From Acidithiobacillus marinus (lineage in GTDB: Bacteria; Pseudomonadota; Gammaproteobacteria; Acidithiobacillales; Acidithiobacillaceae), in contig NZ_MXAV01000008.1 of assembly GCF_002847505.1 (NCBI RefSeq), positions 1 to 64,000 of the forward strand: a stretch of DNA of 64,000 bases. Reading direction: 5' to 3'. Position 1 is the first letter of the stretch; every line of letters starts with the position of its first letter. Made by a program: the position numbers and the translations under genes. Under the pieces are notes generated by a model. That model did no database searches and was not told the DNA's origin. It saw only the letters and a list, made by a program, of their open reading frames with translations. Positions 7,629 through 50,355 of this stretch are shown here, in pieces.

Positions 7629-7720
7629 AAGCAGGGATACTGTTGTGAACCCTGTTGTTTGGTTGCTTGATCAAGCAGCACCTCGCAGTTGGCTGCCAGG
7701 CGCTGCCCCCAGTTTAGTGT

Positions 7721-8926
7721 TCAACCCTGCAAATGATAGTGCCAACCCAGTCGGATAATAGCGACGAAGGCATTGGGGATGGTGTTCCCTGGCCCATTAG
7801 CACCGGGATTGACGATATATTGCAGGTCGGGCTGGATATAAAAGTCCTTGAACACGGGTTGTTTGAAGTTCACTTCCAGGCTGGTTTCTGCAGCCCCCAT
7901 ATTCGAACCGGTTTGGCGTTGCCAGGCACGGTCCATGCCCAGACTGAGCGTTGAGCCGGGTGAATCCGGAATGAAATGCCGCAGCCGTAGTCCCGCACCC
8001 AGATAGGCATTCACTGGTGAAACGACTGCGGTATTGGGGGCTCCGCCACCTTGCAGGAAGATCCCCCAGTTCATCTGATCGGCTTTCCAACGATACTCGG
8101 CGGTACCGTAAAAACCGCCCTGACTGGCAGAAGCACCGATGCCAATATTTTGTGTGAGGTAAGGGCCGTAAATGTGATTGTAATAGCCCCCGGCCTTGAG
8201 CATCGCCGTGCCAGGACCGATGGGAATGCTTTGATCGACTTCACCATAATACATCATGCCATCTCTGCCCCAGGGAGCACGGAAGGGGTGGACGCCATCC
8301 GCATCAAATGCGCCGACCAACACGGTGGTGTTTCCCCAGCTCGCTGAAGCCATGACGCCGAGACTGGAGTAGGGATAAGTGGGGGTGAAGGGAATGTTGG
8401 CGGTAATAGTGGGATATATCCCGTAAGAGGCGTTGAACAGCTCTCCGGCGACTCCGGTGACATTGAAGTAGTCATTAGGATTGATCAAACCCAGTCGTAA
8501 CGTATAGTTCCCAAGATTTTGCCGATAATATGCCTTGTAGAGCCGAGCGATATGTGGGTACGGCGTGGTGAGATTGGATACACCTTGCAGGTCACCGACA
8601 TACAGGCCATCGGGGTTTCCGCTATCGGCAGCCAGCCCTTCGACGACAAAAAGACCCCCCTGCCACCATCCCGCTTTACCGGTGTGCAAGGCGAGTCCTC
8701 CTTTCCAGAGCCCTGTGGCAGTTGTCCCGGTGCGGATGCCGCCACTCAGATTGGCTATTCCCTCTACCTGGCCATGCATGACCAGCGAAATACCACGCCA
8801 CCAGTATTGATGGGCTTCTTCGGGAATGGATTGTCCTGAGCTGGCTGCCCAGGCAGGGGTGATGCCAGCAAAAAACAGCATCGCACCCAGTAAAAGAGGG
8901 CGGTAACGGTGTTGCGGTTGAGACAT
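7721..8926 (-). CDS. OprB-family outer-membrane porin
   Basis: 401 aa with a clear Sec signal peptide (cleavage near PAWA-AS, residue 28) and alternating amphipathic strands rich in Gly and aromatic residues. The start WWRGISLVMHGQVEGIANLSGG and the blocks GGLFVVEGL and LGLINPNDYF match carbohydrate-selective OprB-type porins. It ends in a strand (RLGWHYHLQG) suited to outer-membrane insertion. It is divergent from the zinc importer and shares its 170-base control region, including the TGCAAC/GTTGCA dyad. A role in passing metal or metal complexes through the outer membrane under zinc limitation is therefore more likely than sugar uptake here; this is inference from context. Confidence 0.8.
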   Translation of the reverse strand: MSQPQHRYRPLLLGAMLFFAGITPAWAASSGQSIPEEAHQYWWRGISLVMHGQVEGIANLSGGIRTGTTATGLWKGGLALHTGKAGWWQGGLFVVEGLAADSGNPDGLYVGDLQGVSNLTTPYPHIARLYKAYYRQNLGNYTLRLGLINPNDYFNVTGVAGELFNASYGIYPTITANIPFTPTYPYSSLGVMASASWGNTTVLVGAFDADGVHPFRAPWGRDGMMYYGEVDQSIPIGPGTAMLKAGGYYNHIYGPYLTQNIGIGASASQGGFYGTAEYRWKADQMNWGIFLQGGGAPNTAVVSPVNAYLGAGLRLRHFIPDSPGSTLSLGMDRAWQRQTGSNMGAAETSLEVNFKQPVFKDFYIQPDLQYIVNPGANGPGNTIPNAFVAIIRLGWHYHLQG

Positions 8927-28015: not shown

Positions 28016-28492
28016 TTATTCGTAGCGCACGGCCAGAATCGTGTACTCCCGGGTTCCGGCGGGGGCGCGTACTTCGACCAGATCTCCTTCGTGTTTACCG
28101 ATCAGCGCACGGGCAATGGGCGAACTGATGGAGATTTTGTTTTCTTTGATGTCCGCCTCAGCATCTCCGACAATTTGATAGGTTACTTCTTTTCCCTCCG
28201 CATCTTCTAGATCAACGGTCGCGGCAAAAACAATTTTGCCGCCGGTATTCAGGGTTTTGGGATCAATGACCTGGGCACGGGCGAGAAAGTCCTCCACCTC
28301 GCGAATCCGTCCTTCAATAAAAGCCTGCTGTTCCTTGGCGGCGTCATATTCCGCATTTTCCGAGAGATCACCCTTGGCCCGGGCTTCGGCTATGGCCTCG
28401 ATGACGGCAGGCCGTTCAACCGATTTGAGCCGTTGTAATTCTTCGCGCAAGCGTTGTGCGCCGATGACAGTCATGGGGACTTTATCGCTCAT
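28016..28492 (-). CDS. greA: Transcript cleavage/elongation factor GreA
   Basis: 158 aa, exactly the family length. It binds in the RNA polymerase secondary channel and stimulates cleavage of backtracked RNA. The N-terminal coiled coil carries the acidic tip [15 protein letters not shown]; the C-terminal FKBP-like domain contains [20 protein letters not shown]. It starts 18 bases after the carB stop on the same strand, forming the common carAB-greA transcription unit. Confidence 0.96.
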
Positions 28493-28510: not shown

Positions 28511-31500
28511 TTAATGATGTTGCAAATCCTGAAGGCGAAGGACGCTGCGTTTTTCGCGCATCAGGACACGGATAGCTTCGGCGCCGGCAATGGCCCCAGC
28601 CAGGGTGGTGTAATACGTCAGACCCATCTGCAATGCCGCCCGACGGATACTGAAGGAATCACGGACGGACTGACGTTCATCCACAGTATTGATGATGATT
28701 TGTACTTTACCATTTTTGATGGCGTCCACAATGTGCGGACGGCCTTCGGTAACCTTGTTGACGGTTGTGACATCCAGGCCCTGTGCGCGCAGATGTTCGG
28801 CAGTTCCTCGGGTCGCAACCAGCTGGAAACCGAGGTCAACCAGGGTGAGGGCGGCAGGCACGAGCTTGTCCTTGTCGGCATCCCTTACACTGATGAATAC
28901 AGTCCCTGCGGAGGGGAAATGTTCTCCGGCACCCATCTGTGCCTTGAGGAAAGCTTCGCCAAAGCTGGCGCCGATGCCCATGACCTCGCCGGTGGATTTC
29001 ATTTCGGGACCGAGAAGGATATCGACACCGGGAAACTTGATGAAGGGAAATACCGCTTCCTTGACACTGAAATGACGCGGGTTGGGAATATCCGTTACAC
29101 CCTGGGCTTTCAGGGTTTGCCCGGTCATGCAACGCGAGGCAATTTTGGCCAGAGGCCAACCCGTAGCCTTGGAGACAAAAGGCACGGTGCGGGAGGCGCG
29201 CGGATTGACCTCCAGGACATAAATCCGGTCTTCCTGAACGGCAAACTGACAGTTCATAAGGCCCACGACTCCCAGGGCCAGGGCCAGCTCCACGGTTTGA
29301 CGACGCAATTCTGTCTGGATAGCTTCGGGAAGCGAGTAGGGCGGCAAACAACAGGCCGAATCACCACTATGCACCCCCGCCTGCTCGATGTGCTCCATGA
29401 TGCCCGCTACAACGACCTGTCCATCCTGATCGGCCACCGCGTCAATATCCACTTCCAGGGCATCATTGAGAAAACGATCCAAAAGAATGGGCTGGTCGTT
29501 GGAAATACGCACCGCTTCTTCCATATAGCGTTGCAGATCTTCTTCCGCATACACAATACGCATGGCACGTCCTCCCAGTACATAAGAGGGACGGACAACC
29601 AGGGGATACCCCAGCTCCAGGGCCTTGCTCAATGCTTCCGGAGCACTGCGGGCAATGGCATTTTCCGGCTGCCGCAGCTCTAGACGCTGCAGGAGCTGCT
29701 GGAAGCGTTCGCGATCTTCGGCCAGGTCGATGGAGTCTGGGGTTGTACCGATGATGGGCACGCCCGCTGCTTCGAGGTCGTTGGCCAGTTTCAGAGGGGT
29801 TTGTCCACCAAACTGGACAATGACGCCTTGAGGTTTTTCCACGGCGACGATTTCCAGCACATCTTCCAGGGTCAGTGGTTCAAAATAGAGACGATCAGAG
29901 GTGTCATAATCTGTAGAAACCGTTTCTGGATTACAATTGACCATAATGGTTTCAAAGCCGTCGGCATGCAGCGCCATGCTGGCATGTACGCAGCAGTAAT
30001 CAAATTCGATACCCTGACCGATGCGATTGGGACCGCCACCCAGGATCATGATTTTGGGCTGGTTTCCGGGCTCCGCCTCACATTCCATTTCATAAGTGGA
30101 ATAAAGATAAGGGGTCGGGGAGTGGAATTCGGCCGCACAGGTGTCCACCCGCTTGTACACCGGGCGAATGCCCCATTTCTGTCGCTGCTCGCGTAACTGG
30201 GATTCGCGACAGCCGAGCAGCCGGGCGAGGCGGCGGTCCGAAAAACCCATGCTTTTGAGTTCGCGCAGGCGGGCAGCGTTGAGACTGGCCAAGGGCATTC
30301 CCCGCAAGCATTCTTCCTGCTGAACGAGCTCAAAGATTTGCTCAAGAAACCAGGGATCAATACGGGTGATCTGCTGGATTTTGTCCTGATTCCAGCCACG
30401 CCGCACGGCATCGGCCAAATACCAGAGGCGCTCTGGCCCCGGTACACGCATTTCCTGCTCCAGTTTCTGCAGGGTTTCCGGATCACTGCCGCTGAGTTTT
30501 TCATCCAGGCCATCCACCCCGGTTTCCAGGCCGCGCAAAGCCTTCTGCAAGGATTCCTGAAAACTCCGGCCAATAGCCATGACTTCTCCCACGGATTTCA
30601 TCTGGGTAGTCAGATGATCATCGGCCTCGGGGAATTTTTCAAAGGCAAAGCGGGGGATTTTGGTGACCACATAATCAATGGTCGGTTCAAAACTGGCCGG
30701 CGTCGCCTGGGTGATGTCATTGCGCAATTCATCCAGGGTAAAGCCCAAGGCCAGCTTGGCCGCAATTTTGGCAATGGGGAAACCCGTTGCCTTGGAGGCC
30801 AGCGCCGAGGAGCGCGACACCCGTGGGTTCATCTCGATGATAATCAGGCGACCATCCGCCGGATTGACGGCAAACTGCACATTGGATCCGCCGGTATCCA
30901 CACCAATGCGGCGCAGCACCGCAATGGAGGCATCGCGCATCCGCTGGTATTCCCGATCCGTCAGGGTCTGGGCCGGGGCCACGGTAATGGAATCACCGGT
31001 ATGAATGCCCATGGGATCGAGGTTTTCGATGGAGCAGACGATGATGCAATTGTCGGCCTGATCCCGAACTACCTCCATCTCGAATTCTTTCCAGCCGATA
31101 ATGGATTCTTCGATGAGGATTTCGTGGGTGGGACTGGCTTCCAGACCGCGTGCGGCGATGTCCTCAAATTCTTCGCGGTTGTAGGCAATACCGCCGCCGG
31201 TGCCGCCCAGGGTGAACGAAGGCCGGATAATCACCGGGAAACCGATGTCTTCGGCAATCTGGCGCGCCCCGTCCATGTCGTGGCCGAAGGCCGAACGGGC
31301 GACATCCAGACCGATTTCCTGCATGGCCTTTTTGAACAACCCGCGATCCTCGGCTGCGCGAATGGCCTCTACCGAAGCTCCGATCAGACGCACCCCAAAT
31401 TTGTCAAGAATGCCTTCCCGATGCAGATCCAGGGCACAATTCAGAGCCGTCTGCCCGCCCATGGTCGGGAGAATGGCGTCGGGACGCTCCATTTCGATGA

Positions 31501-31729
31501 TGCGCGCCACCGTCTGCCACTCGACGGGTTCAATATAGGTCGCATCAGCTGTTTGGATGTCGGTCATGATAGTCGCCGGATTGGAATTGACCAGAATGAC
31601 CCGGCAGCCTTCCTCGCGGAGTGCTTTACAGGCCTGGACCCCCGAATAATCGAACTCGCAGGCCTGACCGATGACAATGGGGCCGGCGCCAATCAGCAAA
31701 ACGCTGTGAATGTCTTGGTGCTTAGGCAT
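28511..31729 (-). CDS. carB: Carbamoyl-phosphate synthase large subunit
   Basis: 1072 aa, the expected size. It makes carbamoyl phosphate for arginine and pyrimidines from bicarbonate, ATP and ammonia channelled from CarA. Two homologous ATP-grasp halves start at [20 protein letters not shown] and [20 protein letters not shown]. Each carries an [12 protein letters not shown]- or [11 protein letters not shown]-type loop and an NPR metal-binding segment. The C-terminal MGS-like allosteric domain contains [11 protein letters not shown] and [18 protein letters not shown]. The ATG lies inside the carA end (8-base overlap), and greA follows. Confidence 0.97.
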
Positions 31730-32861
31730 GGGCTGCTCCGTATTGCTGCATGGCCGTTACGAACGCGTCAAAAATGATGCTGGCATCGTGCGGGCCGGGG
31801 CCTGCTTCCGGGTGCCCTTGAAAGGAAAATACCGGGAGATCTTTATGGGCCATGCCCTGCAGGCTGCCGTCAAAGAGGGAAGTATGGGTAATGCGCAGAA
31901 CATCGGGCAGAGTTTGGGCGTCCACGGCAAAACCGTGATTCTGACTGGTAATGAGCACCCGACCAGTGCGGAGGTCTTTCACCGGGTGGTTGGCACCATG
32001 ATGGCCGAATTTCATTTTGATGGTTTTGGCCCCCAAGGCCAGACCGAGCAGTTGATGTCCCAGGCAGAGTCCAAAGGTGGGTATGCGTGCCGCCATGATT
32101 TCGCGCAGGGCTTCCTGGGCATAATCCAGGGCATCGGGATCGCCGGGGCCGTTGGAAAACAGCACGCCATCGGGATGCAAGGCAATCACCTCCGCCGCAG
32201 GGGTTTTGGGGGACACCAGGGTGACCCGGCAGGCGCGGTCGGCAAGCAGACGCAGGATATTGTGCTTTTTGCCGAAATCGTAGACCACGACATGATGTTT
32301 GGGGTGCGTAATGGGTTGCGCCTGATAAGCCTGTTCGGGTGAGCCACTGGCCAGGAGCCACTCCGAGGAATGTTGAGCGGCGACATCCTGCACCAGATCC
32401 CGGCCCAGCAGGCCGGGGAAGCGACGAGCTGCGTTCAGGGCTTCCTGTTCATCCACCTTAACGCCGACCAACAGGGCCGCATTCTGGGCGCCGCCATTAC
32501 GCAGGCGGCGGGTGAGGGCGCGGGTATCCATACCGGCAATGGCGGGAATACCCTGTTCGACCAGGAAGTCGGGGAGACTCTGCTGGCTGCGCCAGTTGCT
32601 GGGAGTGCGCGGCATGTTGCGCAGGACCAGAGCCGAGCAGAATATTTGCGCACCTTCCATGTCTTCGGGATTGATGCCGGTATTACCGATATGTGGGTAA
32701 GTCAGGGTGACAATCTGACCGCAATAGGACGGATCCGTCAGTATTTCCTGGTAACCGGTCATTGCCGTGTTGAAACAGATTTCACCGGCGGCAAGACCAC
32801 TGCTGCCAAAGCCCGTACCCCGGAAGATACTGCCGTCTGCCAATGCCAGAACCGCCTGCAC
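31722..32861 (-). CDS. carA: Carbamoyl-phosphate synthase small subunit
   Basis: 379 aa from the chosen GTG. It is the glutamine-amidotransferase subunit; the class I triad is visible as the Cys in [15 protein letters not shown] and the His/Glu pair in [15 protein letters not shown]. The N-terminal domain has [24 protein letters not shown]. The frame is open up to 32951, but GTG at 32861 aligns with family N-termini ([15 protein letters not shown]) and has GAGGTG just before it. Translation from farther upstream would run through a terminator hairpin at 32891-32914. Overlaps carB by eight bases. Confidence 0.95.
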
Positions 32862-32890
32862 TTTCTCACCTCGTCTACCATGGAAGATGC

Positions 32891-32914
32891 AAAAAAGGGA
32901 GGGTGTCCCCTCCC
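32891..32914 (-). terminator. Probable attenuator in the carA leader
   Basis: Read on the bottom strand, GGGAGGG (32914-32908), loop GACA, CCCTCCC (32903-32897), then six T (32896-32891). A 7-bp all-strong stem plus T-tract is a standard intrinsic terminator. It sits 30 bases before the carA GTG, and no other bottom-strand gene lies upstream for it to end, so it most likely controls carAB-greA by attenuation. Confidence 0.7.
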
Positions 32915-33131
32915 GCATAGATTGACCGTATTCTAGGGATATGGTGGGCACGGGTCAACGTAAGCATGAGGCTCCTTCAGGGTTTGCGCCATTGAGGAAT
33001 ATTCGGTGTGGGTGATCTCGGTGGTCGAGGTCTTGAGGGTGTTTACAGCAAGATAAGTGCTTGAGTGAGCGACAAGGGATGGTAAGCTTGTCTTCATCAG
33101 ATAGGCATAATTACCAAAGGAGCCGTTCAGC

Positions 33132-33896
33132 ATGCGTCGTTATCCAGGTTCGCTGTTGTTTGCCGGTGTGGTGCTGGCTTTGTCTGGCTGTGGTTCGGCC
33201 ACCAATAACGGGTTGTCCCCGCAGGCGGAAAATACCTATCCGGTCCCCTCGGCCATACCTACGCCACCCATCTATAAAGCATCTGCTCACGAGGTACCCC
33301 CTACTGAAGAACAGGTCCCCGCTCAGTCGCTTCCAGCAGTAAGTGCCCCGGTCGTGCCGCCGTCTGCCGGTTCGGCGCTACCCGGCGTGAATTACTCTTC
33401 GACAGCGTTGCCCTTGACCCCCTTGGCCTCCTCCGCATCGGCCATCCGTTCCGCCACGCAGTCGGTCAGCCAGGCAGCACCCCAGACCCTGGCCAGTGCC
33501 AAAAATTCAGCAGATCAGGCGGAGAGTCAGGCACAAAACATGGTCCAGCAGAAACTCGGCACGGCCACTTCGGTATTTTCCGGAAAATGGCAGGCCGATA
33601 TGCGCAAAGCCCGTCAGGATAGTGCCCAATGCGCTGCACTGAGCTCCAGCGCCCAGAGCAGCTGTTGGCAAAAGGTATCGTATTGGGCTAAGTCGCGAGA
33701 GGCGCAATATCAGACCATGAGTAGTACCGCGACGGGTGCCGAGGCCCAGCAAATGCAGTCCGCTGCCAAATTTTTCGGGGTCACCAGTGAGTGGGCCAGT
33801 GCCTGTAGTTCCCTCAGTGCACAGTCCTGTGCTGAATCACCGCTGATCAGCAAGATGCAGCAGTGGAAGGCATCGGTGGGTATTTCGGGTAGATGA
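33132..33896 (+). CDS. Lipoprotein of unknown function
   Basis: 254 aa. The signal sequence ends in the lipobox LALSGC (Cys20), so the product should be lipidated by Lgt/Lnt. Residues 25-110 are rich in Pro, Ala and Ser and look disordered; 110-150 is Ala/Gln/Ser-rich. The C-terminal part has regularly spaced cysteines (QDSAQCAALSSSAQSSCWQ, WASACSSLSAQSCAES) that could form disulfides in the periplasm. No family was recognised. Divergent from carA across 270 bases that hold no other supported gene. The AT-rich accessory region starts 68 bases downstream. Confidence 0.75.
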   Translation: MRRYPGSLLFAGVVLALSGCGSATNNGLSPQAENTYPVPSAIPTPPIYKASAHEVPPTEEQVPAQSLPAVSAPVVPPSAGSALPGVNYSSTALPLTPLASSASAIRSATQSVSQAAPQTLASAKNSADQAESQAQNMVQQKLGTATSVFSGKWQADMRKARQDSAQCAALSSSAQSSCWQKVSYWAKSREAQYQTMSSTATGAEAQQMQSAAKFFGVTSEWASACSSLSAQSCAESPLISKMQQWKASVGISGR

Positions 33897-34689
33897 ATTT
33901 ATATTTTTTGTGTACCGCTACTGTGGGACTTTGTGGCTAATAATAGTTAATAAGGACGTCTAAGATGAAAAGAATTATTTTGGAAGATGCGATAAAGTTT
34001 TTTAGGATGAATGAACGTCTTGACAATAAAGCTGCAAAACAGATAGCTGAAAACAATAAAACAACTGCTTTTGGTGTATTTGAAAAGCTAAAAGTATGGA
34101 ACAGACCGACCTCAGAAAATATAACTATCATAGAAGAGGTAAAAAGATACGAACCTTTTTGGTATGCAGAGGCGGAACGGGTAATAGAGTATAAATCTAT
34201 TTCCTCGTATTCCGTTGATATTAACAACAATGATGCTCATTCAATAGAGATAAATGGGAATCTTCATGAGGTAAAAAAAGATAAAAAAATACATATACCA
34301 GTGACCGAGCACTGCCTTAATAAAAAGGTTCACATCAGCCATGTTTATGGTGTTGAAAGAGATGTAAGCAAAAAAGAAATAGTCGAGTACATTGAAAAAC
34401 ACTCATCTGAGCAGGAAGAGCTTACTGAAAATCAGGTTCTTCAGGATAATCTTCTTATTCAACCAGAGAAAAAGCTTGCTACGATACTACATATGATTGA
34501 AAAAGAGCTTGCTCATGCTGTTAATGCGAGCGAAATTGTCAATGATACTATTACGTTTAATAAAGTTTATTTATATTACCACCCTGTCTATGCATTTGAA
34601 TGCCTCTGGTCTGGAAAATCTGCAGTATTAGAGGTTGATGGTCTTAATGGTAAGCCGATTGGCGGGGGTAGAATGAAAAAAGAAATGAT

Positions 34690-34698
34690 ATCTATGAT
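34690..34698 (+). repeat. Target-site duplication, left copy
   Basis: ATCTATGAT, 9 bases, identical to 36237-36245 on the other side of the element. Nine-base duplications are typical of IS4-family insertions. Confidence 0.9.
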
Positions 34699-34776
34699 AT
34701 GTACGTTAGACATACAGCCTCCTCGCCAGCCCCTCTGGGTGGCGTTATGGCTCGGTAAATTTGGGTCAGAAGTGAG

Positions 34777-36084
34777 TCAGGCGGCCTTTTTGCGGGGTGG
34801 GTCATCGGCGTCGGCCCAAAAGGCGGGTGCTGGGCACTGGAATTTCCCGGACTTCGGGTCGAAACCCTTCCAGAAGGGAACCCGCAGAAATTGCAGATGG
34901 AGCCATTGGGCCATGAGTCCTGCGGTAACGGGGGTGGCGACACGCCAGGGCGCTATGTCGGTCATGGGGAAGTCCTCAGCTAGGGTTTCGGCGAGGAGCT
35001 GCACCATGGACCAGGCGATGCAGCGGATTTGCATCCAGCGTTCCAAAACGGTGCGTTTTTGCTGCCAGAGATTATTGATGCCCCACCAGCGTTTGAGGTT
35101 ATGGAAGATCGGTTCGATCTGCCAGCGGTTGCTGTAGAGGGAGACAATTTCGCTGGCGGTCAAGTGGGTCTCGGAAGCGAGATAGAGGCGGGTGGGAGAC
35201 CATCGACGATGCTTTTCGTCGTAGATTGCACTCCAGACAGCCCGGACCGGATGGCCTTTCAGGAATCGTGCATTGGCGACGATGGATTGGAGACGGACCT
35301 TCTGCCATTTCCCATAGATATGCAGAGAGACGGTTTCGGTGGGCAGTGCGGCCATCTCTTCCGGGGTGTACTTGTCTCCATATATCCGGGGACGTCCGCG
35401 TTTGGATGTTTTCGGCGGCGGGTCCTGGAGCAGCACGGTATCTTTGCGCACCTGGCCGATAAACTGGCCGTGCTGACGCAACAGGGGCAAGAGCAGGCGC
35501 CGCCGCATGAACCAGGCATCGGTGAGCAGACGGACGGGTACTGGGATATGGGGCAGAAAAGCGCGCAGCAACGCCCCGGCAATTTTCAGCTTGTGGGTGT
35601 TGCCGGTGCTCGGTACCAAGCGCAAGCGGATGGGAAAGGAAATGGCTTTGCCGGATCGGGTACGGAGGGTCAACGCCAGGCCCACCCAATTCTGGGCGAG
35701 GACATAACTGGGGCGATTGTGTTTATGGCTGTGATCGAAGCGGAGGGCCGCACCTGGGGCTTTGGTAGAGTGTCGCAGGACCAGGGTATCGTCGATGACG
35801 AGATCGACGATCAGGAGCTTGGGCAAGGACTGCAGAAGCCAGCGTACCTGGGCTATGGCCAACGCCTGGGTGCGCAAGGACTCGCGCTCCAGGAGTTTGT
35901 AATAGGTGGTCCAGTGGCAGCGGAGGGAGATGCTACTGAGGGCGCGGGTGACCCAGCCTTCGGGCGAGATCAGGCAGCCACAGAGCAGTTCGAGGAAGCT
36001 GCGCCGCGAGCGGGGCGGCACGACCGTCAGAAAGTAGGAAATCCACTCCGACAGGCGGAGGGAAACGAGACGATGAAAGGGCAT
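34777..36084 (-). CDS. IS4-family DDE transposase
   Basis: 435 aa. Catalytic acidic residues are visible in VIDDTLVLRHS (first Asp), LLTDAWFMRR (second Asp) and YSNRWQIEPIFHNLKRWWG, the Y-x2-R-x3-E-x6-K signature of the IS4 family. The N-terminal region (about 1-90) is helical and would bind the ends. The insertion-domain part around 235-300 is Lys/Arg-rich. The ORF is complete and the element looks able to move. It is transcribed opposite to the gene it interrupts. Confidence 0.93.
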   Translation of the reverse strand: MPFHRLVSLRLSEWISYFLTVVPPRSRRSFLELLCGCLISPEGWVTRALSSISLRCHWTTYYKLLERESLRTQALAIAQVRWLLQSLPKLLIVDLVIDDTLVLRHSTKAPGAALRFDHSHKHNRPSYVLAQNWVGLALTLRTRSGKAISFPIRLRLVPSTGNTHKLKIAGALLRAFLPHIPVPVRLLTDAWFMRRRLLLPLLRQHGQFIGQVRKDTVLLQDPPPKTSKRGRPRIYGDKYTPEEMAALPTETVSLHIYGKWQKVRLQSIVANARFLKGHPVRAVWSAIYDEKHRRWSPTRLYLASETHLTASEIVSLYSNRWQIEPIFHNLKRWWGINNLWQQKRTVLERWMQIRCIAWSMVQLLAETLAEDFPMTDIAPWRVATPVTAGLMAQWLHLQFLRVPFWKGFDPKSGKFQCPAPAFWADADDPPRKKAA

Positions 36085-36120
36085 GGGTGTGATTCCGAGA
36101 AGCCTAAAACGCTTCTCATT

Positions 36121-36148
36121 GGCCGACCCTTTTTTACAAGGGTCGGCC
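36121..36148 (-). repeat. Perfect 10-bp hairpin in the transposase leader
   Basis: GGCCGACCCT (36121-36130), 8-base loop, AGGGTCGGCC (36139-36148). It lies 37 bases before the transposase ATG and would fold in the leader mRNA. Related elements use such folds to limit translation from read-through transcripts. Confidence 0.6.
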
Positions 36149-36196
36149 GCACGGCCCCATCACCGTGTCAAGCACTTTCGCCGAAAGAAAGGCGAT

Positions 36197-36217
36197 AAAA
36201 AACCCGGCGGAGCCGGG
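36197..36217 (-). terminator. Inward-facing terminator at the IS right end
   Basis: Bottom strand: CCCGGC, loop TCC, GCCGGG, then six T. It is oriented to stop transcription entering from the flank toward the transposase, about 110 bases before its start. Confidence 0.8.
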
Positions 36218-50164: not shown

Positions 50165-50174
50165 CTTGAACTTG

Positions 50175-50350
50175 CCTCCTGCGAGGCACGAGTGGCCGAG
50201 ACGATTCCTGAACCAATACTGTCTATCCAGGGAGTCCCCAGTCATCATCGTGGTGTGCAGTGCCCTTGCGGCGTAGCCTAAAGCGATGTGTGGATTCCCA
50301 CCTGTTCATCAGGTTCTGGGGGTAGCGGGCCGCACGACCATCGCGGGAGG
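50175..50350 (+). ncRNA. ssrS: 6S RNA
   Basis: Located between zapA and fau as in other gammaproteobacteria. CCTCCTGCGA (50175-50184) pairs with TCGCGGGAGG (50341-50350) to close the rod. The 5' strand contains the conserved CCTGAACC-like and GGGAGTCCCC segments and the 3' strand GCGGCGTAGCCTAAAGCGA, comparable to E. coli 6S RNA around GCCTTAAAACTGCGACGACA. The central bulge that mimics an open promoter falls near 50215-50300. It binds the sigma70 holoenzyme. Exact processed ends are uncertain by several bases. Confidence 0.8.
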
Positions 50351-50355
50351 TTTTT

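Follow-up and report, generated by a model that had tools for sequence, protein, structure and literature searches.

The carA leader and its hairpin

The window, i.e., the whole stretch of 64,000 nucleotides of Acidithiobacillus marinus DNA that was analyzed, carries carA, carB, and greA consecutively on the bottom strand. The carA gene (31722..32861), encoding the small subunit of carbamoyl-phosphate synthase, starts with GTG (32861..32859) and is preceded by the ribosome binding site GAGGTGAG (32865..32872). A carA homologue was present in 40 out of 40 genomes searched. The end of carA is overlapped by the open reading frame (ORF) that we take to be carB (28511..31729), and the last gene of the presumed operon is an ORF that we take to be greA (28016..28492); both identities follow the naming in an earlier note on this DNA, made from the sequence alone, and the appearance of the sequences themselves. 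CarAB supplies both pyrimidine and arginine synthesis via carbamoyl phosphate. In E. coli, carAB has two protein-controlled promoters, and to our knowledge, the setting of the carAB level in most other proteobacteria is poorly known.

The best promoter-like match in 15 kb (10/12) was located upstream of carA on the bottom strand, having TTGACC as the −35 hexamer (32953..32958) and TAGAAT as the −10 hexamer (32930..32935) with a 17-nt spacing. From its position, we infer a transcription start at an A (32923), 7 nt past the −10 hexamer and approximately 62 nt before carA. The order on the bottom strand was TTGACC-17 nt-TAGAAT-ACGGTCAATCTATGC-GGGAGGG-GACA-CCCTCCC-TTTTTT-GCATC, followed by GAGGTGAG and the carA GTG at 32861. 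The 5′ stem arm GGGAGGG (32914..32908), the loop GACA, and the 3′ stem arm CCCTCCC (32903..32897) form the hairpin (32897..32914), which would span approximately +10 to +27 of the predicted RNA, directly behind the promoter. It is followed by the T6 tract (32891..32896), completing an intrinsic-terminator-like signal, and then directly by GCATC (32886..32890). With the predicted start, a transcript ending at T6 would measure approximately 33 nt. The earlier note had placed a GC-rich 7-bp stem with six T residues at 32891–32914, 30 bases before carA; the coordinates proved exact (GGGAGGG-GACA-CCCTCCC-TTTTTT at 32914..32891), and the spacing from the T-run to the carA GTG was measured as 29 nt.

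The element has a GC-rich stem followed by a U-tract (7 bp, 6 G-C, T6), as expected for an intrinsic terminator. The fold of the 31-nt RNA was exactly this hairpin (−16.0 kcal/mol), and none of 200 shuffled sequences was as stable (mean −7.6 kcal/mol, z −3.9). A strict terminator motif (at least 7 bp with at least 6 G-C pairs, loop of 3–8 nt, at least 6 T of 8) had a single occurrence when both strands of the complete window were scanned, at this site, whereas 40 shuffles of the window averaged 0.025 occurrences and had at most 1. With looser criteria, 15 kb yielded 17 terminator-like sites where 16.3 were expected, i.e., the chance level, and the loose motif therefore means little. The covariance model R1, of which the window hairpin is itself a row, matched the site with 32 bits (E 1.2e-6), and no other match in the own genome had an E below 1 (the next was at E 1.05). 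Searches against Rfam 15 at the gathering score gave no match at the hairpin site or in 20 carA loci, and the best of the weak matches at the site had an E of 7.3. The sole gathering-level Rfam match in the window was a 6S RNA (50173–50353, top strand).

As the earlier note had it, no upstream gene on the same strand requires a terminator here: since the closest upstream gene (33132..33896, top strand) is divergent, no upstream gene accounts for the hairpin. The next notable bottom-strand ORF upstream is transposase-like (34777..36084), and the neighboring ORF 33965–35137 seemingly extends into it. In the close relative L004, the divergent lipoprotein-like gene is followed by a gene other than these; therefore, an insertion is likely in the window at 33965–36198. 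The closest upstream ORF was also divergent in 11/11 genus members examined (L001 to L019), and thus the hairpin terminates no upstream gene in these. The hairpin could otherwise be read as a terminator against upstream read-through, e.g., a relic of a dapB-carA gene order, and five loci (L031, L045, L057, L076, and L101) indeed have ORFs that look dapB-like by sequence before carA in the same direction. This is highly improbable given that the hairpin is invariant in the window and the genus, where the neighbor is divergent, and that a conserved promoter lies in between; for Acidithiobacillus, termination of an upstream gene was rejected.

Conservation and spread of the element

Among the Acidithiobacillaceae carA loci, the leader was present in 24 (23 distinct over the compared stretch) and missing from L021. 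The blocks conserved in the 23 distinct leaders were TTGACC (invariant), TAGAAT (near-invariant), the GGGAGG/CCCTCC stem, and TTTTTGCA (invariant), while the stretches 5′ of the −35 hexamer, between the hexamers, and from the T-run to the ribosome binding site were variable. The T-run was 5–8 nt long in Acidithiobacillales. The distance from the −10 hexamer to the stem was 12–15 nt in the family; therefore, the stem would start at approximately +7 to +10. R1 recovered 23/24 of the leaders, and the one that it missed (L023) has a shorter stem. No conserved promoter was found downstream of the hairpin. A carA start downstream of the hairpin, named in the earlier note as the observation that would refute attenuation, appears unlikely, because the invariant −35 and near-invariant −10 hexamers lie upstream and no conserved promoter follows the hairpin.

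Similar hairpins were found before carA in many beta- and gammaproteobacteria, with [GA]CGGGA/UCCCG[CU] as the lower stem, an upper stem and loop that vary, and UUU behind them. For alignment A1, 59 leaders with this hairpin type were chosen by eye from 95 distinct leaders, and 8 odd or duplicate sequences, as well as 11 near-duplicates or sequences with awkward loops, were removed, leaving 40 rows. In A1, 93.0% of the stem cells were paired, compared to 81.5% in shuffles and 44–59% with the partner slid, and two-sided (compensatory) changes were present in 7/11 pairs, counts that lean towards pairing because the rows were chosen by eye. G-U pairs were recurrent (12/40 at one pair) and loop lengths varied widely. 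Alignment A2 comprised 33 rows from other genomes, reverse-strand matches of the same stems included, and had 96.4% of the stem cells paired, the alignment being fitted to the model.

These alignments bear on whether the repeat could act as DNA, i.e., as a palindromic operator across the start region. The stem by itself is palindromic and would lie near +1, and the lower-stem sequence is nearly constant. Even so, an operator is a very improbable reading: loop lengths vary, G-U pairs recur, changes on both sides preserve pairing, and the U-tract is on one strand only, in the window the bottom strand.

In 370 genomes of the class, R1 had a match at E≤0.01 in 160. Among the 80 genomes with the strongest matches, the best match was located no more than 200 nt upstream of carA on the same strand in 65, and some listed match was so placed in 70; at least three of these 80 genomes (G025, G026, and G035) had contributed A1 rows, and others may be of training species. 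R1 was also run on 100 carA loci, 75 of them non-Acidithiobacillaceae. At E≤0.01, 40 of the 75 matched, 32 of which were model rows, and 35 had no match. Aeromonas, Vibrio, and several Nitrosomonas carA loci were without an R1 match at this threshold. The Pseudomonadales locus L101 had, by eye, a hairpin with T6 and GCG, with no R1 match at E≤1. Five loci (L045, L062, L066, L074, and L083) come from MAG records titled Bordetella parapertussis, and their species names look doubtful, their carA regions being similar to ones from records whose title is just Betaproteobacteria bacterium.

The 26 carA matches outside Acidithiobacillales (the 33 A2 rows minus six reverse-strand matches and one not at carA) had an initial T-run of 2–4 nt in 23 cases, and the tail outside this order reads UUU-N-YRYRUCUR. 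The tail-middle motif was present in 27/42 leaders, whereas 500 shuffles averaged 1.07 and never exceeded 5, the counts being inflated by shared ancestry. GCATC in the window is a possible counterpart of this tail. A textbook terminator needs a longer T-run than 2–4 nt; the ancestral function may therefore have been something other than termination, and outside Acidithiobacillales, the element may act by pausing as much as by termination. Among 19 regions with R1 matches away from carA, ten were 6–41 nt behind a same-strand ORF, like ordinary terminators, and the longest T-run was mostly 5–8 nt (14/19). The off-carA matches thus resemble ordinary terminators with longer T-runs, and the carA element is therefore not just any terminator. 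One R1-like hairpin with a GUAUCUG tail (L165; G172:C18, about 7710–7757) was located 42 nt before a pheS-like ORF, and might be a similarly built leader of a different gene.

The short T-runs, along with a tail that reaches past a terminator, would also suit a hairpin that pauses the polymerase just past promoter escape, the U-tract and the conserved tail being a pause signal and not one for release. In line with this, a pyrimidine-G (Y-G) step at positions 11/12 behind the stem was found in 20/42 non-Acidithiobacillaceae leaders, compared to 3–13 at the other offsets tested. The 26 further matches had it in 11/26, against 13/26 for Y-G at 3/4; the his-type pause geometry, not distinctive in this second set, was thereby weakened. 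In addition, the Acidithiobacillus T-run is long, and the step at 11/12 in the window is not Y-G. For the carA leader of the window, a pause of this kind is improbable.

Probable attenuation and related leaders

In P. syringae DC3000, carA has a single promoter, with the start 118 nt upstream of the gene, and a mapped 3′ end lies immediately behind a terminator predicted in the leader, yielding the small RNA P32 (PMC4997734). Disruption or removal of the stem-loop led to higher reporter expression. Uracil lowered the expression of the full-length fusion, and arginine plus uracil caused no change in qRT-PCR. In P. aeruginosa, as reported in the same source, removal of the stem-loop abolished the pyrimidine response, but not the arginine response.

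The Acidithiobacillus leader resembles the Pseudomonas one in having a terminator hairpin between a single promoter (here with a predicted start) and carA, and in the operon order carA-carB-greA, the likeness being drawn from the description in PMC4997734. The start is 118 nt before carA in P. syringae, compared to the predicted 62 nt or so in Acidithiobacillus, and a leader peptide is reported in P. aeruginosa, while none is conserved in Acidithiobacillaceae. The Acidithiobacillus element probably acts in the manner of the Pseudomonas attenuator, from a much shorter leader that has no conserved leader peptide.

A structured RNA before carA is also described for Betaproteobacteria: the Polynucleobacter carA motif (RNA Biol 2021, PMC8632094) is an extended, imperfect hairpin that directly precedes the ribosome binding site, known from 30 examples with little covariation, and control of translation was proposed for it. 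Compared by description only, it is like the present element in being a structured RNA before a betaproteobacterial carA with a promoter upstream. The open-licence literature searched contained nothing informative on Acidithiobacillus start sites or on Burkholderia or Neisseria carA leaders. The covered main text of a 2010 paper on premature terminators in bacteria (PMC2965389) had no passage on the carA operon, and the covered parts of PMC10175445, PMC4619228, and PMC7997844 held nothing further on the leader hairpin. While carA attenuation in Pseudomonas and the carA motif in Polynucleobacter are known, we found neither the Acidithiobacillus element nor its occurrence across beta- and gammaproteobacteria described in the open-licence literature searched.

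The promoter-proximal place of the hairpin, its conservation before carA, and the action of the Pseudomonas carA leader make attenuation the best reading, and we put the probability that the hairpin attenuates carAB-greA transcription close to the promoter at roughly two in three. The earlier note had proposed attenuation from the geometry; the location of the hairpin, its being unique in the genome, its conservation with covariation, and the Pseudomonas precedent (PMC4997734) favor this part. Polymerase would start at approximately 32923, transcribe about nine nucleotides, and then the hairpin; at the T-run, it would either release an RNA of approximately 33 nt or read through into carA. We infer such termination, as well as its pyrimidine signal: judged from the homologous case of the carA leader in Pseudomonas, the share of read-through would most likely rise when pyrimidines are short. 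The hairpin is thus a credible on/off valve for carbamoyl phosphate production, and its conservation across beta- and gammaproteobacteria suggests that Pseudomonas-style attenuation may be the usual mode, with E. coli as the exception.

The hairpin, being the first structure of the predicted message, could instead be a 5′ stem-loop shielding the carAB message from decay. About nine unpaired nucleotides would precede the stem, the invariant U-tract and GCA would be left unexplained, and removal of the stem-loop in P. syringae raised expression (PMC4997734), so that protection is a very doubtful alternative to attenuation.

Candidate signals

In the earlier note, pyrimidine or arginine supply was suggested as the signal of the attenuator. 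For the pyrimidine half of this suggestion, the support comes from Pseudomonas, and the arginine half is countered there, as the arginine response of P. aeruginosa is reported to survive the loss of the stem-loop (PMC4997734); arginine control of the attenuator is unsupported.

If the predicted start is right, the approximately nine nucleotides before the stem can hardly accommodate a leader peptide or an upstream antiterminator. The 23 leaders differed in whether a start codon stands near +6 and in its frame, and none was conserved. An AUG at +6 was in the carA frame in the seven leaders nearest to the window, while most of the others either lacked it or had it in another frame; a conserved leader peptide was rejected. 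The comparison of leaders for an anti-terminator pairing, suggested in the earlier note, revealed no conserved competing pairing by eye, and the short 5′ stretch leaves hardly any room for one. Pairing of the Shine-Dalgarno sequence with the post-hairpin stretch was not in excess over shuffles in 57 leaders (2.81 vs. 2.77 in 11 Acidithiobacillaceae leaders and 1.54 vs. 1.55 in 46 others), and translational control by its sequestration was rejected as well.

UTP-sensitive attenuation of the E. coli pyrBI type requires that the leader be translated and that the polymerase pause at a U-rich stretch before the terminator. The present leader is similar in having a terminator before a pyrimidine gene, but a translated leader with a pause does not fit into approximately 9 nt before the stem. 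In B. subtilis, termination is linked to pyrimidines at pyrG, whose terminator is near the start, and at attenuators with a PyrR-binding loop. The closeness of the terminator to the start is shared with pyrG; in contrast to these attenuators, the Acidithiobacillus leader has no G-run at the predicted start and no Rfam match at the gathering score. With the leader so short, and the two classical answers (a leader peptide and an upstream antiterminator) hardly fitting, what the attenuator senses is sharply testable.

When the T-run is transcribed, part of the approximately 33-nt nascent RNA is still within the polymerase. As there is little RNA 5′ of the stem, the signal probably acts directly on the hairpin or on the polymerase, and the candidates would be nucleotide supply acting on the polymerase at the U-tract or a hairpin-binding protein. 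The same shortage of sensor room with the stem at about +10, as well as the lack of an antiterminator, a conserved leader peptide, or a known RNA-family match in the searches above, would suit a terminator or pause that is partial and constitutive, keeping the basal carAB-greA level low without sensing anything. Deep conservation before one biosynthetic operon argues against this, as does the dependence of the P. aeruginosa pyrimidine response on the stem-loop (PMC4997734), and we consider constitutive action unlikely.

PyrR was encoded in 66/71 genomes having the hairpin at carA, compared to 112/210 genomes without an R1 match, a comparison uncorrected for relatedness. Five hairpin genomes were without a convincing PyrR, which weakened PyrR as an obligatory partner (5/71). 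Owing to these exceptions and the uncorrected relatedness, the association of the hairpin with PyrR, suggestive but confounded, is a lead only.

A wider reading, which we offer tentatively and regard as doubtful, is that an unnamed carA-leader RNA element is common to beta- and gammaproteobacteria, comprising a hairpin that in many lineages begins within some 5–15 nt of the predicted start, followed by a short U-tract and the UUU-N-YRYRUCUR tail. It would sense pyrimidines via the polymerase or an RNA-binding protein, for which PyrR is a candidate in most genomes, without a leader peptide or an antiterminator, and the Acidithiobacillus version would have hardened into a strong terminator.

In the own genome, PyrR is encoded directly before pyrB. 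Directly after pyrR, pyrB and pyrC were in one open frame (L147 1438–3699; G000:C18), and the 754 aa tested comprised an aspartate carbamoyltransferase (22–321) and a dihydroorotase-like part (334–753); the single frame may reflect either genuine fusion of the genes or an assembly error.
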